A stretch of DNA of 64,000 nucleotides from Dehalococcoidia bacterium (GTDB lineage Bacteria > Chloroflexota > Dehalococcoidia > Lucifugimonadales > Lucifugimonadaceae), in the NCBI GenBank assembly GCA_009693115.1, contig SHXW01000012.1, positions 1 to 64,000 on the forward strand, given 5' to 3'. Positions 22,240-52,216 of the stretch are shown piece after piece. Each line of letters opens with the position of its first letter. Within the stretch, counting starts at the first letter, position 1. A program made the position numbers and the translations under genes. The notes under the pieces are model-generated. The model did not search any database. It was given only the letters and a program-made list of their open reading frames with translations, and was not told where the DNA came from.

Positions 22240-24072
22240 CTACTTCTTCTGGAACCACTTGTTTGCCGGGAGCTGGTCAGCCGGGCCGCCACCGCCGACT
22301 ATGCCCCGCATGTCTGCACGTGCCGCCCAGCGGCTGAAGAACTCGCCAACCTGGAGGAAGATTGCGTCCTCATAGAAGTAGGCTTGGAAGTCATCCATGA
22401 TCTGCTTCTGCTTCGCGACGTCAGTTTCCTTGGCGAGCTTGGTCAGGCTATCCCTGCCCTTGCCCGGGACGTCCTGATACTTGTTGAACCAGCCGTTGTA
22501 CTGGATTTCACCAAAAGCCAAGTGCCCGACCGGACCGGTGCGAACCGACGAGCCGGACCATGTGTGGAAGAACTCCCACAGTTCCGGGTCTGCGCGGCGG
22601 GTCACCATGGTCGCCCAGTCCATAACCAAGAACTCAACGTTGAATCCGATGTCCGCCAGAACCTCACGGCTGACCTGGGCTGCGGCGTGAGCCGGCTGAC
22701 GGTCAGTCGGGTCCATCAGGCGGACCTTCATCCCGGCCATGCCGAGAGCAGCGATCTTCGCCTTGGATTCGGCGGTCTTCTTTGCGTAGTAGTTGCCAGC
22801 CGCGCCTGCCGAACTCTCCCAGTCAGTGCCGCACTGCATGAGGGACGGGCAGAGGCGGTAGGAGTTCTTGTTGCCCGCGGCAAGGAGCAGTGCCTTTTCG
22901 TTGTCGTAGGCCTGTATGAACGCCCTGCGGGCCTCCACATTGTTGAACGGAGGCTTCAGGTGGTTGAAGTGGCCGAGTAGCCGGTTGGGCGCCATGCTAA
23001 CCAGCTGGATCTTCGTGTTCTTCTCCAGGCGGACGGCAAGGTCAGCCGGGAACTCCTGAGCCATATCCACTTCGCCTGCTTCAAGAGCGGCGACGCGGGT
23101 GGTCTGGTCCGGGATCTCTATGTATTCGACGCGGTCGAGGTAGGCGGTCTGCCGTCCTGCGGCCCCATCTGTCTTTTCCGGGCTGGCCTTGTAGTCAGCG
23201 AAACGAACCATGCTCCAGCGGTCGCCGGGGGTCCATTTCTCGAACTTGTAAGGGCCGGTCCCGATTGGGTCGCCCTTGGCGGTTTCCTTCTGTGGCACTG
23301 CCGACCATGCCTCTGACTGGATCAGTGGCTGGAAATTCTGCGGCCCGAGCCCGAATGGCACAAGGCCCGTCGGCTCCTTCAGGTTGATCGTAAAGGTCAG
23401 GTCATCCACGACTTTCACGTAGTCCGTGAACACCGGCGTCCCGAACTGCGCCTGCACCAGCTTGAAGACAGCAGCAGCGTCCTTCTGGCGGTTGAGCGTG
23501 GCTATGACCTGTTTGGTGGTCAGGGGCGTCCCGTCATGGAACTTGACTCCACTGCGGATGCGGAACGTCCACGTCTTGCCGTCCCCGCTGCTGATCCATG
23601 ACTCAGCCAACTGCTTGCCGAGGGCGTACTGCTCAGTGTGCGCCAGCAGCAGTTCCTGGATTGAATAGGTCACGTTGTGCGTCCCGGACGCCGTCGTCCA
23701 GTTGGGGTCGAAGCTCTGGACGCTGCCGGAAGCGGCGATTTTCAGCGAGCCGCCGGCCTTCTGGCTCTCCGGCACCGCCGCCACGACAGCAGTTGCGGTG
23801 GCCGTCTGGATCACGACGACGGTCTGTTGGACGATCTTCTCTACTGGCTTTTCCACGACGACGGTCTGTTGGATGATCTTCTCTACTGGCTTTTCCACGA
23901 TGACGGTTTGCTTAACGATCTTCTCTACTGGCTTTTCCACGATGACGGTCCTGTCTATCACGACAGGCGTAGGCACAACCGCCGGGGCTGCTTCGCCGCA
24001 TGCGGCGGTCACACCCAAAGCGGCAGCCGCAACAGCCAGCAGCGCCAATTTCAACGACAATGACCGTTTCAT
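22240..24072 (-). CDS. Extracellular solute-binding lipoprotein, family 5, with tandem-repeat stalk
   Basis: 610 residues. The signal peptide ends in VTAACGE. A stalk of three 14-residue repeats of the form TVIVEKPVEKIVQQ spans about residues 41-82, then the binding domain begins at GGSLKIAASGSVQSFDPN. WTFRIRSGVKFHDGTPLTTKQV and GTGPYKFEKWTPGDRW are family marks, and CPSLMQCGT near residue 406 matches the paired Cys of the first binding protein. It feeds the permeases downstream. An acylase gene lies 166 bp upstream on the same strand. Confidence 0.92.
   Translation of the reverse strand: MKRSLSLKLALLAVAAAALGVTAACGEAAPAVVPTPVVIDRTVIVEKPVEKIVKQTVIVEKPVEKIIQQTVVVEKPVEKIVQQTVVVIQTATATAVVAAVPESQKAGGSLKIAASGSVQSFDPNWTTASGTHNVTYSIQELLLAHTEQYALGKQLAESWISSGDGKTWTFRIRSGVKFHDGTPLTTKQVIATLNRQKDAAAVFKLVQAQFGTPVFTDYVKVVDDLTFTINLKEPTGLVPFGLGPQNFQPLIQSEAWSAVPQKETAKGDPIGTGPYKFEKWTPGDRWSMVRFADYKASPEKTDGAAGRQTAYLDRVEYIEIPDQTTRVAALEAGEVDMAQEFPADLAVRLEKNTKIQLVSMAPNRLLGHFNHLKPPFNNVEARRAFIQAYDNEKALLLAAGNKNSYRLCPSLMQCGTDWESSAGAAGNYYAKKTAESKAKIAALGMAGMKVRLMDPTDRQPAHAAAQVSREVLADIGFNVEFLVMDWATMVTRRADPELWEFFHTWSGSSVRTGPVGHLAFGEIQYNGWFNKYQDVPGKGRDSLTKLAKETDVAKQKQIMDDFQAYFYEDAIFLQVGEFFSRWAARADMRGIVGGGGPADQLPANKWFQKK
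23827..23952 (-). repeat. 42-bp in-frame tandem repeat (stalk of binding protein)
   Basis: Three near-identical 42-bp units encode 14-residue Val/Glu/Lys/Pro repeats directly after the lipid-anchored N-terminus. The pattern is consistent with an extended spacer; copy number may vary between strains by slippage. Confidence 0.85.
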
Positions 24073-41863: not shown

Positions 41864-43144
41864 CTACTGGTAGAGCAGCGCGCCCGCGATGGAAACGAAC
41901 GAGCCGCCATCTGCGTCTGCCGGACATTGTCTATATGCCATCCACCGTCCTGTGCCTTCACCTGCCGCCCATAAGGCCATGTATGCCGGTGCAAGGCCGC
42001 AGATGCGGTTCACATCTCCGGCTTCCCCGACCTGTCGGAGAAAGCCCGGGCCGTCGCCACGGACGAAAGAATCAAGTAACCGCTCGTCAGCGGATTGCAC
42101 GCGAGCGCGGTCTGTCTGGGATGGCGGTTCCGTATCTCCAAAGGCGGGGCCGACGTGCGCGAGGTCGGCCGCTGCGATGAAGACCGTGCGCCTTGCCCGC
42201 GCCGCTTTCCTGACGACTTCAATAGCGTCGGCTATATGCGGGAGGTTGGCGGGAGAGCCGTGGCGCCCGGCGGGACTGACATACCTGTGCAGCGAGCCGC
42301 ACAGCAAAGGGAGCACGGCCACCGTCCTGCCTGCGGCGTAGTGGAGCCATACGGCGGCCAACTCAACCGAGTGTTCACCGATGTGGTTGAACTCGTCTGC
42401 GAAAGGGTGGTCGGGCAAGGTCGGATCGGCAGCCAGTACCTCGGCGAGTTCATCTACTAGCCTGGTGTCGGTGGGGAGCAGGCCCCAGGGCGTCGCATAG
42501 CTCTGCCGGGTCAGCGTCAGGCGAGGGCCGTCTCCGTTGTGGTCTGTGCCAAAGATGACGGCGAGTTCAACGTTCTGGAGTTCAGGCGCCGCCTCCCCCC
42601 AAACAACCGCGTAGGTCTTGCCACCACGGGAGTAGTCAATGTGCGGCGAGAGGATGGCGGCTAGCCGGCCGGCGGGCCTTGGCCCCTTCACCATGCTGCC
42701 GTCTGAGTAACCTGCCAGCTGCTTTATTAGTGCATCAGGTTGGGAAGCGTACACGCCGCCGGCCAGTGCAGGCGGCCTGTGTGTTGCCGATAAGTACGCC
42801 TCCAGCCTTCGGGCGCGTTCCTGTTGATATGCGCCGTTTTCGATCAGGAACAGTTGATCAAGGCGTTGGAAGAGTTGCTCAAGTATCTTCGCTGGCACCG
42901 GCGGTGCGCCACGGAACATGCCCACACCTGCGATTTCGGCCAGCGTACGACTGCCGTCAGCGAGAGCCAGGTAAGGCGCAAGCTGTTCAGGCACCAGCAG
43001 GGCGCCATCCGCCAAGTGCCGCGGGTCGGAGACGGCTAGGCAGTCCTTACCATTCCGCGTAATACGCTGCGCATCGACAGGCCGCAGGCGCGGGCGTTCG
43101 GGGAGGCTCACGGCAGCAGACCCCTGATTGGGGATGACGTTCAA
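41864..43144 (-). CDS. MEMO family protein (AmmeMemoRadiSam system protein B type)
   Basis: 426 residues. An N-terminal extension of about 130 residues precedes the MEMO1/YgiD-fold domain, where LSPHIDYSRGGKTYA, FGTDHNG, HIGEHSVELAAVWL and DLAHVGPAFGD carry His/Asp positions of the extradiol-dioxygenase-like site. In bacteria MEMO proteins often accompany AMMECR1 and radical-SAM proteins; neither partner is adjacent here. The start (TTG at 43144) is uncertain; GTG at 43108 is an alternative. It is minus strand, downstream of the unknown operon 43182-44350. Confidence 0.8.
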   Translation of the reverse strand: MNVIPNQGSAAVSLPERPRLRPVDAQRITRNGKDCLAVSDPRHLADGALLVPEQLAPYLALADGSRTLAEIAGVGMFRGAPPVPAKILEQLFQRLDQLFLIENGAYQQERARRLEAYLSATHRPPALAGGVYASQPDALIKQLAGYSDGSMVKGPRPAGRLAAILSPHIDYSRGGKTYAVVWGEAAPELQNVELAVIFGTDHNGDGPRLTLTRQSYATPWGLLPTDTRLVDELAEVLAADPTLPDHPFADEFNHIGEHSVELAAVWLHYAAGRTVAVLPLLCGSLHRYVSPAGRHGSPANLPHIADAIEVVRKAARARRTVFIAAADLAHVGPAFGDTEPPSQTDRARVQSADERLLDSFVRGDGPGFLRQVGEAGDVNRICGLAPAYMALWAAGEGTGRWMAYRQCPADADGGSFVSIAGALLYQ

Positions 43145-48154: not shown

Positions 48155-49105
48155 CTAAGCAGTTCTCACTGCGCTCAAGCTCAGCCACGTCCGCGGCACC
48201 GTCTTCAGCTGCATTTCAGCAAAGATCTCCTGCAGTCCCTTTTGCAGCGCCGCCCGCCCCTTGTCGAGCGGCACGCCGGGCATGACGCCGTGGATCCAGT
48301 CGCTGAATGCGGATATGTAGTGGTAGCCATCTATGGGTACGTCAAATGCGGTGACGTCTTTCTGCATGATTTTGAAGCCATTGCCGGACAGCAATTCCAC
48401 GTACTCGTCCACTGTCAACTGCTTGCGGGCTTCAACCTTCTGCGATTTGTCCGGCGAAAGCCCGTACTCGCGTTTCAAAATGCGAAGCGACCGCATCATC
48501 CAGCGGCGGTAGAACTCATGCGACTCTGGCGGGTGCGACCCGTCGAAGAATGACGTGTTGATGGCGAGGAGCCCGCCCGGGCGCAACTTCATGCGCAGCT
48601 GGGCCAGGAGCGCCGCTTTGTCAGGCACATAGTGGATCGAGTTGCAGTAGATGATCGCGTCAACCTGGTCGCGCACGGCAGTCTGAAGTTGCTGCACGGG
48701 TGCCTGTACAAAGCGGACGGCAGCCTCTTTCCGGTTGCCCAGATCGGCCATGGCGGCCCGGAGAGCGCTCGATGAGTGATCCACGGCGTAGATTACTGTC
48801 TCACGTGCCGCCTGTACGCGAACCTGCAAACCTTCGCGGGCCGCTGACACCCGGTCGTTCATCCCGTCACGCGCCGCTGACACTTTGTCCCCGAGACCTT
48901 CGCGGGCCGAGTGCACCCTGTCGAGGATCAACTTCGTAATGCCGCCAGTGCCGCACCCCAGGTCAATGATCGTCTCCTGCTTGGCGATTTCGGAAATGTC
49001 CACCAGCCTGGCGTTGATGTCACGGTAAAACGGCAGCGCAGCGAACGCCCGGAAGGAGAACTCATCGTCGGTAACTTGGTCTAGAGTAGGGTCGGTGTCG
49101 GCCAT
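48155..49105 (-). CDS. Class I SAM methyltransferase with 11-residue repeat insertion
   Basis: 316 residues. Motif I is IDLGCGTGGITK, followed by an unusual insertion of four 11-residue repeats (residues 63-106, of the form RVSAAREGLxx), then motif II AVDHSSSAL, motif III-like VRFVQAPV, and motif IV DAIIYCNSIHYV. The fold is a typical small-molecule methyltransferase apart from the repeat, which should form an amphipathic helix projecting near the SAM pocket. No substrate is deducible. It is minus strand with a GGAACAAG-type site before the ATG. Confidence 0.85.
   Translation of the reverse strand: MADTDPTLDQVTDDEFSFRAFAALPFYRDINARLVDISEIAKQETIIDLGCGTGGITKLILDRVHSAREGLGDKVSAARDGMNDRVSAAREGLQVRVQAARETVIYAVDHSSSALRAAMADLGNRKEAAVRFVQAPVQQLQTAVRDQVDAIIYCNSIHYVPDKAALLAQLRMKLRPGGLLAINTSFFDGSHPPESHEFYRRWMMRSLRILKREYGLSPDKSQKVEARKQLTVDEYVELLSGNGFKIMQKDVTAFDVPIDGYHYISAFSDWIHGVMPGVPLDKGRAALQKGLQEIFAEMQLKTVPRTWLSLSAVRTA
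48788..48919 (-). repeat. 33-bp tandem repeat inside the methyltransferase gene
   Basis: Four tandem 33-bp units encode 11-residue repeats with conserved Val, Ala-Ala-Arg and Gly positions. The periodicity is that of LEA/apolipoprotein-like 11-mer amphipathic helices. It interrupts the loop between SAM motifs I and II. Confidence 0.8.
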
Positions 49106-49356: not shown

Positions 49357-50226
49357 TTGCGTGTGATACGCAACCCTTTTCAGATCGTGGCAAGCACGCC
49401 GACACTCGCACTGCTGGCATTGTTCTCCGCGGTCATTCTTGCGGTCGCCGCCTGTGCGTCAGATAGGGCGACAGCCGAGGCGCCATTGGCAGGCATGAAG
49501 GTGACGTCTGAGCCAGCCGGGACGGTCCTCGTACTCGCTGCCGCCTCGCTGACAGACGTGCTGACGGAGGCTGCGGTCAAATTCAAAACGGAAACAGGCA
49601 TCGAGGTTAAGTTCAGTTTCGGCGGGTCCGACTCACTCGCAACACAACTTCGCCGCGGTGCACCGGGCGACGTCGTGATATTCGCGGGGGCCGGTCCCCT
49701 CGACGGTCTGGAAAAGGACGGCATTGTCTTAAAAGATTCAAGGAGGGACATAGCCTCCAACAGGCTAGTCATCATTGCACCGGCAAGGTCTGGTCTTAAG
49801 CTGGCGTCGCTCGGGGAAATTGCGACGGGTTACTCAGGCAGAGTGGCGATAGCGGACCCCCGACTTGCGCCGGCGGGCCGGTATGCTCAAGCCGCGCTGG
49901 AAAAGGCGGGCGTTTGGGCTGCGCTTGGTCCGAGGCTCATTCCAAGCCTGGACGTCCGAAATACAGCCGCCGCAGTGGCTTCCGGCAATGCTGAATTCGG
50001 GTTTGTGTATGAGACGGACGTGGCAGCGGTGAAGGGTGTGGATGTGGTGATGGCCGTCCCACGGGACGCCTATCCGCAGATACTCTACCCGGCGTCGGTC
50101 GTGGCGGGCTCTGAAGCGCAAGCGTTGGCTGGCAGGTTCCTTGAGTATCTGGTGAGCCAGGAAGCAGCGGGACTGTTTGGAAAATACGGGTTCCGGCCCC
50201 CGGAGTACCAAGCTCTCTTAAAGTGA
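49357..50226 (+). CDS. modA: Molybdate-binding lipoprotein
   Basis: 289 residues. The signal peptide ends in a lipobox (LAVAACAS). The ModA fold begins with TVLVLAAASLTDVLTEAAVKF, the classic first strand and helix; FSFGGSDSLATQL binds the oxyanion through Ser, and VYETDVAAVKG is the conserved late Tyr segment. It captures molybdate or tungstate for the ModB/ModC transporter downstream. The start is a TTG at 49357 or a GTG six bases later; neither has a strong ribosome binding site. A 183-bp gap with a palindrome separates it from modB. Confidence 0.92.
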   Translation: MRVIRNPFQIVASTPTLALLALFSAVILAVAACASDRATAEAPLAGMKVTSEPAGTVLVLAAASLTDVLTEAAVKFKTETGIEVKFSFGGSDSLATQLRRGAPGDVVIFAGAGPLDGLEKDGIVLKDSRRDIASNRLVIIAPARSGLKLASLGEIATGYSGRVAIADPRLAPAGRYAQAALEKAGVWAALGPRLIPSLDVRNTAAAVASGNAEFGFVYETDVAAVKGVDVVMAVPRDAYPQILYPASVVAGSEAQALAGRFLEYLVSQEAAGLFGKYGFRPPEYQALLK

Positions 50227-50344
50227 AACCACTGCAATTCCGCAGGTTGTCGTCTGAGTGTGTGGCGCGCAGATGGCAGGTGTCAGGTCCCTCTGCTACG
50301 TTCGGGAAGAGGGGGGCTGGTGATTACAGGGTTTGGCGATGATG

Positions 50345-50385
50345 TCTACACCCTCGCCTTCTTACTCCGGGAGGGGGCGAGACGA
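50345..50385. repeat. Dispersed palindromic repeat copy
   Basis: CCCTCGCC...GGGAGGGGGCGAG (50351-50381) lies in the modA-modB gap. The palindrome may stabilise the upstream modA mRNA end. Confidence 0.5.
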
Positions 50386-50408
50386 CGTGAAAGGTCCCTT
50401 TACAGGCG

Positions 50409-51110
50409 ATGCCATCGGCCCTCTCCATAGTCCTCTTAACGCTCAAGATCTCAGCGGCTGCGATGCTCATCGTAATACCGTTGGGGATGGTGGTCGCGTG
50501 GACTCTCGTCAGAAAGCGGGTGCATGGCAGGTTCTGGATAGAGGTTCTGATTTCGCTGCCACTCGCCCTCACACCAGTGGTGATCGGCTTCGCGCTCCTG
50601 TCAGTCCTTGGCAGGAACTCGACGATGGGCAGGTTCACGCACGAAATCTTCGGGTGGGACATAGCGTTCACATGGGTCGCAGCCGCACTGGCCTCCGCAG
50701 TAGTGGCGTTTCCTCTTTCCGTGCGAGCGTTCATGGTGGCCTTTGCCGGTGTTGACACCAGGGCGGAACTGGCGGCGCGCACGCTCGGCGCGGGGCCATG
50801 GCGCGTCTTTTTCACCATCACACTGCCGATGGCCTACCCGGGCCTGCTCGCCGGTGCGCTACTAGGGTTCGCGCGGGCTCTTTCTGAGTTCGGGGCGACC
50901 ATTGTCGTCGCTGGCAACATCCCCGGCGAGACGCAGACGCTTTCCCTCGCCATCTTCAACCGCATCTCGACCGGTGATGATGCCGCTGCCATGCCGCTCA
51001 TCGTTGTCACAGTAGTGCTCGCCGCAATCTCAATCGCGATACATAACCATCTGCTCACACGAGCCGTCAGGTTAGAGGCCAATAGAAGCCAGCGGGAGGC
51101 ACGCGGTTGA
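50409..51110 (+). CDS. modB: Molybdate ABC transporter permease
   Basis: 233 residues with five to six membrane helices. The EAA loop RTLGAGPWRVFFTITLPMAYPGLLAG is typical of ModB and contacts ModC, and FARALSEFGATIVVAGNIPGETQTL is the conserved ModB segment. It forms the molybdate channel. It overlaps the modC start by 4 bp (TTGA), giving a tightly coupled modBC pair. It is slightly short compared with E. coli ModB but the core is complete. Confidence 0.92.
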   Translation: MPSALSIVLLTLKISAAAMLIVIPLGMVVAWTLVRKRVHGRFWIEVLISLPLALTPVVIGFALLSVLGRNSTMGRFTHEIFGWDIAFTWVAAALASAVVAFPLSVRAFMVAFAGVDTRAELAARTLGAGPWRVFFTITLPMAYPGLLAGALLGFARALSEFGATIVVAGNIPGETQTLSLAIFNRISTGDDAAAMPLIVVTVVLAAISIAIHNHLLTRAVRLEANRSQREARG

Positions 51111-52216
51111 GCCAGCCGCCCATCCTCTCATTCCATTTCAAGCGCGCGACGCGCGGGTTCGACCTTGACGTGTCCGCAGAGTGCGGATCTGGCATCACCG
51201 CTCTTTTCGGGCCTTCAGGTAGCGGCAAGTCAACTACTCTGAACTGTGTTGCAGGGATGCTCAGGCCGGACCAGGGAGAGATCGCTCTCAACGGACGGAC
51301 GCTGTTTTCATCGACGGGCAAAGTGGACCTGCCTCCGGAGAAGCGGCGCGTGGGGTACGTTTTCCAGGACGGAGCGCTCTTCCCGCACATGACCGCGCTC
51401 GACAATATCCGCTACGGCTTCGAGCGCACCCCGGAGTCTGCCCGGCGCATAAGCCCGGACGAGGCTATCGCCCTGCTCAGACTCGGCCCATTGCTTGAGA
51501 GGCGGCCCGCGCAACTTTCCGGCGGCGAAAAGCAGCGCGTCGCCCTTGCCCGCGCCCTCGCGGCATCCCCGGAACTGCTGCTGCTGGACGAGCCGATGGC
51601 CTCGCTCGACTCTGCGTTGCGCGGCGTTGTGACCGTGTATTTGAGGCGCATAAAACGGGACCTCGGCATCCCCATGCTCTATGTTTCGCACTCGATCACC
51701 GAGGTGCTGGCGCTTGCCGACCGCGCCCTGCTCATCAAGGACGGGCGCATCACCGCGTTTGACAGGCCGTCGCGCCTCTTGCTTGAGACTGCAGCTGGCT
51801 TCTTCCATGAGGCCGGCGCAGCAGACAACCTGCTCGACGGCGTCGTGAGCAGCATTGACGGACGAGGCTCTGGACGGGTGCGCGTCGGCGGCGCAGAGTT
51901 CGTCGCGCCGGTTGGCGCACGCCAGCCCGGAGATGCGGTCGTGCTTTCGATAGGCGCTGCGGAGATAATCCTCGCCACGAACAGGCCGGAAGGGCTGAGC
52001 GCGCGAAACGTGCTGCCCGCGCGCCTTGCGGAATTGGATATCAAGGACGGCCACGCTTTTGCTCGGGCGGAGATTGGTGTGTCCCCATCGGATACTCAGC
52101 TGATCGTCGAATTGACCGAGGGCGCCGTCAGCGATCTGGGCCTTTCTCCTGGGCAGGACATCTACCTTGTCTTCAAGTCGAGCAGCGTGGCTGTGTTGGA
52201 CGCAGAGGAGCGGTAG
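51107..52216 (+). CDS. modC: Molybdate ABC transporter ATP-binding protein
   Basis: 369 residues. Walker A (FGPSGSGKSTTLN), Q-loop YVFQDGALFPHM, signature LSGGEKQRVALARAL, Walker B LLLDEPMASLDS and switch His in VSHSITEV. The C-terminus carries a TOBE (molybdate-sensing) domain (about residues 290-365, LPARLAELDIKDGHAFARAEI). The start is TTG at 51107 overlapping the modB stop. Energises ModAB; the TOBE domain suggests feedback by bound molybdate. Confidence 0.93.
   Translation: MSQPPILSFHFKRATRGFDLDVSAECGSGITALFGPSGSGKSTTLNCVAGMLRPDQGEIALNGRTLFSSTGKVDLPPEKRRVGYVFQDGALFPHMTALDNIRYGFERTPESARRISPDEAIALLRLGPLLERRPAQLSGGEKQRVALARALAASPELLLLDEPMASLDSALRGVVTVYLRRIKRDLGIPMLYVSHSITEVLALADRALLIKDGRITAFDRPSRLLLETAAGFFHEAGAADNLLDGVVSSIDGRGSGRVRVGGAEFVAPVGARQPGDAVVLSIGAAEIILATNRPEGLSARNVLPARLAELDIKDGHAFARAEIGVSPSDTQLIVELTEGAVSDLGLSPGQDIYLVFKSSSVAVLDAEER

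Follow-up and report, generated by a model that had tools for sequence, protein, structure and literature searches.

How does an enzyme of a common fold come to carry a run of 11-residue repeats between two of its cofactor-binding motifs, and what do the additional residues do there? This question is raised by a methyltransferase gene on the minus strand of the window, the whole stretch of 64,000 nucleotides of Dehalococcoidia DNA that was analyzed here. We consider it probable that the repeat is an old in-frame intragenic tandem duplication of the end of helix A, folded as a hairpin away from the SAM pocket and leaving catalysis unchanged. The features on which the argument is built are the following:

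48158 to 49105, minus strand: gene of a class I SAM-dependent methyltransferase, 316 aa (Pfam matches; orthologues in the family)
48155 to 48157, minus strand: stop codon of this gene, the whole open reading frame being 48155 to 49105
48932 to 48976, minus strand: beta-1 with motif I (DLGCGTGG) and the start of helix A, residues 44-58 (orthologue alignment)
48800 to 48931, minus strand: four 11-residue units in the best-fitting register, residues 59-102 (phase scan)
48899 to 48931, minus strand: native unit LILDRVHSARE, from the C-terminal part of helix A (counterpart of the one unit in all aligned orthologues)
48800 to 48898, minus strand: insert of 99 bp, that is 33 residues or three units, with limits that may be shifted along the repeat (33-residue gap in every aligned orthologue)
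48773 to 48799, minus strand: beta-2 with motif II (TVIYAVDHS) and the acidic D109, residues 103-111 (orthologue alignment)

The assignment to the class I enzymes rests on matches to Pfam Methyltransf_11/12/25/31 above the curated cut-offs, together with a GxGxG-type loop of motif I after beta-1 and an acidic residue at the end of beta-2, D109, which is invariant across the orthologue alignment. By its motifs I and II and its Pfam scores, the protein resembles the Rossmann-fold methyltransferases of the Methyltransf_11/25 type; it is set apart from them by the duplication of 33 residues that stands between helix A and beta-2. Of the 76 genomes of the family, 70 yielded an orthologue, and an order-wide search gave matches in 148 of 250 genomes, with the genome of the window counted. 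Among solved structures, the protein, its family profile and the repeat matched only generic methyltransferases or nothing, and a literature search for 11-residue repeats in methyltransferases found nothing.

A lag scan and codon shuffles confirmed the periodicity of 11 residues or 33 bp at residues 63-106 (48788 to 48919, minus strand). At lag 33, 56 of 99 bases in the repeat match, whereas the remaining lags between 27 and 39 give 20-36, and the best self-match of 99 bases in the gene (57) exceeds the maximum of 300 codon shuffles (50). Tandem Repeats Finder, run with a score of 30, did not report the 33-bp array, since identity between the units is no more than 48-70%. The phase scan placed the in-frame register of highest identity four residues upstream of the one given in the initial annotation, with the units LILDRVHSARE, GLGDKVSAARD, GMNDRVSAARE and GLQVRVQAARE (mean pairwise identity 19.0 of 33 bases). 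In this register unit 1 is the native end of helix A, which runs on through all four units and is followed by beta-2.

The comparison with relatives makes clear how much of this array is new. The alignment comprised the window protein and 50 loci, of which L003 and L004 are apparently from the same genome, leaving 49 independent orthologous loci. All 49, read in the alignment, have a single 11-mer of the form LILERLQSAKD and lack the insert; the window protein has exactly 33 residues more than each of them at the junction of helix A and beta-2, where L027 and L036 each carry one additional residue. Among orthologues outside the alignment, the match ranges begin at residue 95-104 in nearly all rows listed by the family and order searches, the exceptions being partial matches, and these starts fit orthologues without the insert. 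An in-frame expansion of 11-mers between motifs I and II is thus borne out, and four units do stand there as first described, but only three of them are inserted, the count in relatives being one unit versus four in the window copy. The initial annotation had tied the fate of its proposal to absence of the repeats from all orthologues combined with disruption of the SAM pocket in a fold model, and the first half of this pair is what we find (insert in 0 of 49 aligned loci). Judged by the alignment, the expansion is specific to the lineage of the window genome and is seen in one genome; the compared genomes belong to other genera, and no intermediate copy number was seen among them.

The nearest record in the genome collection is L003, an uncultured Dehalococcoidia bacterium. 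The window holds, at 49357-52216 and divergent from the methyltransferase gene, a solute-binding protein gene followed by two open reading frames that resemble permease and ATPase components of a molybdate-type ABC transporter. In L003 as well, the methyltransferase gene is adjoined by one for a molybdate-type (SBP_bac_11, modA-type) binding protein, which indicates that the comparison was made with an orthologue. With the insert left out, the window gene differs from that of L003 by a pS of 0.75 and a pN of 0.24. Between the units, which are alike at 16-23 of 33 bases, the pooled pS is 0.64 and the pN 0.35. Since the silent distance between units is close to that between the two genes, the duplication, as dated from these substitutions, is old, with silent sites near saturation. 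Recent slippage was considered and rejected, as it requires units nearly identical in their DNA. Of the earlier suggestion of a slippage expansion, the origin by duplication therefore stands and the recent slippage does not. The amino-acid pattern of the units has changed less than their silent sites, and this suggests some constraint on it, a weak signal given that each unit has just 33 bases. The conserved residues of the methyltransferase are intact in the window copy, and an ordinary root-to-tip distance (1.64; median 1.75) makes the gene unlike a decaying one; the placement of the protein in the tree has low support (0.13).

Where did the inserted units come from? The insert measures three whole units and stands in tandem with the native one, as in other in-frame intragenic duplications in enzymes, which likewise have a whole number of codons, tandem units and a seed in the native sequence. 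Unlike typical cases, the units are old, diverged and seen in one genome. A profile of the native 11-mer, built on 48 orthologous loci, gives the native unit of the window protein 24.8 bits, and over the whole protein the inserted units rank second, third and fifth after it. Their absolute scores are weak (-1.2, -2.3 and -6.8): compared with the 99.9th percentile of the background (-2.1), one lies just above, one just below and the third well below. It is likely, but not proven, that they derive from the adjoining native unit. Such weak scores would also fit an acquisition from another 11-mer gene, for example of the YtxH type, by illegitimate recombination at a shared DRxxSARE motif. A donor was sought within this genome, across the family and in a sampled part of the class, and the search found only YtxH-type tails and unrelated weak matches, all in relatives. 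The tails, DRTDSAREQLWDRTGSAREQFMDRTSDAREQM, occur in a sister genus (L055, L057), and the genome of the window itself contains neither a match to a YtxH-type protein nor a second copy of the repeat. Together with the suitability of the native helix end as a seed, this leaves acquisition quite improbable. The YtxH-type genes encode small membrane proteins with DRTxSAREQ(L/F) 11-mer tails resembling the insert and lie on the minus strand at 1345-1734 of L055 and 1336-1794 of L057.

The simplest account, from these comparisons, is that the native helix end was duplicated in frame and in tandem. The last 11 residues of helix A would have been duplicated in the lineage leading to this one genome, after which the units would have diverged while the methyltransferase gene stayed intact.

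Helix A leads away from the GxGxG loop and ends on the other side of the sheet, where beta-2 starts. From this topology the insert, at the C-terminal end of helix A and before beta-2, is expected opposite the SAM pocket. In Rossmann-fold methyltransferases, SAM is bound by the GxGxG loop that follows beta-1 and by the acidic end of beta-2 (PMC1282579), and these motifs, taken with general knowledge of the fold, argue against an arm at the active-site entrance, where the repeats had first been placed. A full-length structure model from an alignment of two sequences, the check proposed in the initial annotation, reached a mean pLDDT of 40 and was unusable, and viral contigs yielded no further relatives to deepen the alignment. 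A single-sequence model of residues 41-126 gave one long continuous helix with high confidence. This model makes beta-2 helical too, so only the helix propensity was taken from it, which is high and agrees with the 11-mers being helical.

Since the core holds helix A and beta-2 in place, close together, the extra units cannot extend as one straight helix; a straight helix of 50 angstrom would be impossible without a return. Each inserted unit starts with a glycine (G70, G81, G92), so that a hairpin, or else several short helices in a row, is plausible. With both ends tied and these glycines in place, a fold-back as a hairpin is most likely: the units would turn at the glycines and form a short helical hairpin that lies on the far side from the SAM pocket. 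There the insert could alter surface properties, stability or self-association, or have no effect, with catalysis unchanged. Most likely, then, it would be a helical protrusion or hairpin that is tolerated or modulates stability or self-association.

Could the units instead bring the enzyme to a membrane? The 11-mers would in that case build an amphipathic 3-11 helix of the kind seen in synucleins, perilipins and apolipoproteins, an idea that draws on the 11-residue period, on a weak resemblance to the Pfam model Apolipoprotein A1/A4/E (E 0.041) and on 41-43% likeness to the tails of the YtxH-type membrane proteins in relatives. Synuclein and LEA proteins have an 11-residue period, alternating charges and an (R)EG(L/M)-like motif. 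The insert shares these with the 11-mer amphipathic helix proteins (synuclein, perilipin 4, apolipoproteins, LEA group 3, YtxH tails), but it differs from them in having only three extra units inside an enzyme, a low moment, no aromatics and both ends fixed to a folded core. Its scores against the known families stay well below the cut-offs (Apolipoprotein 14 bits, cut-off 90; DUF883 11.7, cut-off 25.4). Residues 70-102 have a mean hydrophobicity of 0.02, a 3-11 helix moment of 0.24, no aromatics and a net charge of +1, and over the 33 residues 62-94 the moment only slightly exceeds that of shuffled sequences (p about 0.05). For comparison, the published moments of alpha-synuclein, Plin3 and Plin4 are 0.30, 0.35 and 0.257, and Plin4, according to the authors the weakest known lipid-binding amphipathic helix, needs more than 66 residues (PMC5889406), whereas 33-44 are available here. 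As the moment is about at the level of Plin4 over a much shorter length, lipid binding by the insert is poorly supported by its composition, and a membrane arm seems very improbable. The expansion is probably tolerated rather than a membrane-binding arm, and, whether or not the hairpin has a function, the idea of a lipid-binding arm at the active site should be dropped.

The partner-binding side of the initial proposal fares somewhat better. The extra helices could form a coiled-coil (hendecad, spacing 3-4-4) for dimerisation or binding of a partner: L/M, V and A positions lie on one side of the 3-11 helix in all units, and the pN below pS between units hints that the pattern was kept. The hydrophobic stripe is narrow and weakly hydrophobic, however, and a conserved partner interaction cannot be inferred from an insert in one genome only, so that a protein-protein contact is possible but doubtful. 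The stronger version, a new and selected oligomerisation or partner-binding hairpin made by triplication of the end of the protein's own helix A, we regard as unlikely; if true, it would be a clean example of a new structure arising from a native helix. For the favored hairpin, the contrast of one and four units, with many intact orthologues, would provide a clean case of a surface helix growing by duplication of its end if it is functional. If it has no function, the junction of helix A and beta-2 in this common fold would tolerate 33 additional residues over long times.

Two other loci of the window deserve mention. A Memo-like protein of 426 aa is encoded on the minus strand at 41867-43144; its Memo match covers only residues 125-421, with the first 124 residues outside it. 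The minus-strand gene at 22240-24072 contains a 42-bp tandem repeat (23812-23950; 3.3 copies, 91%), which encodes VEKPVEKI(V/I)QQTVVV units near the N terminus of a protein of 610 aa that starts like a lipoprotein.
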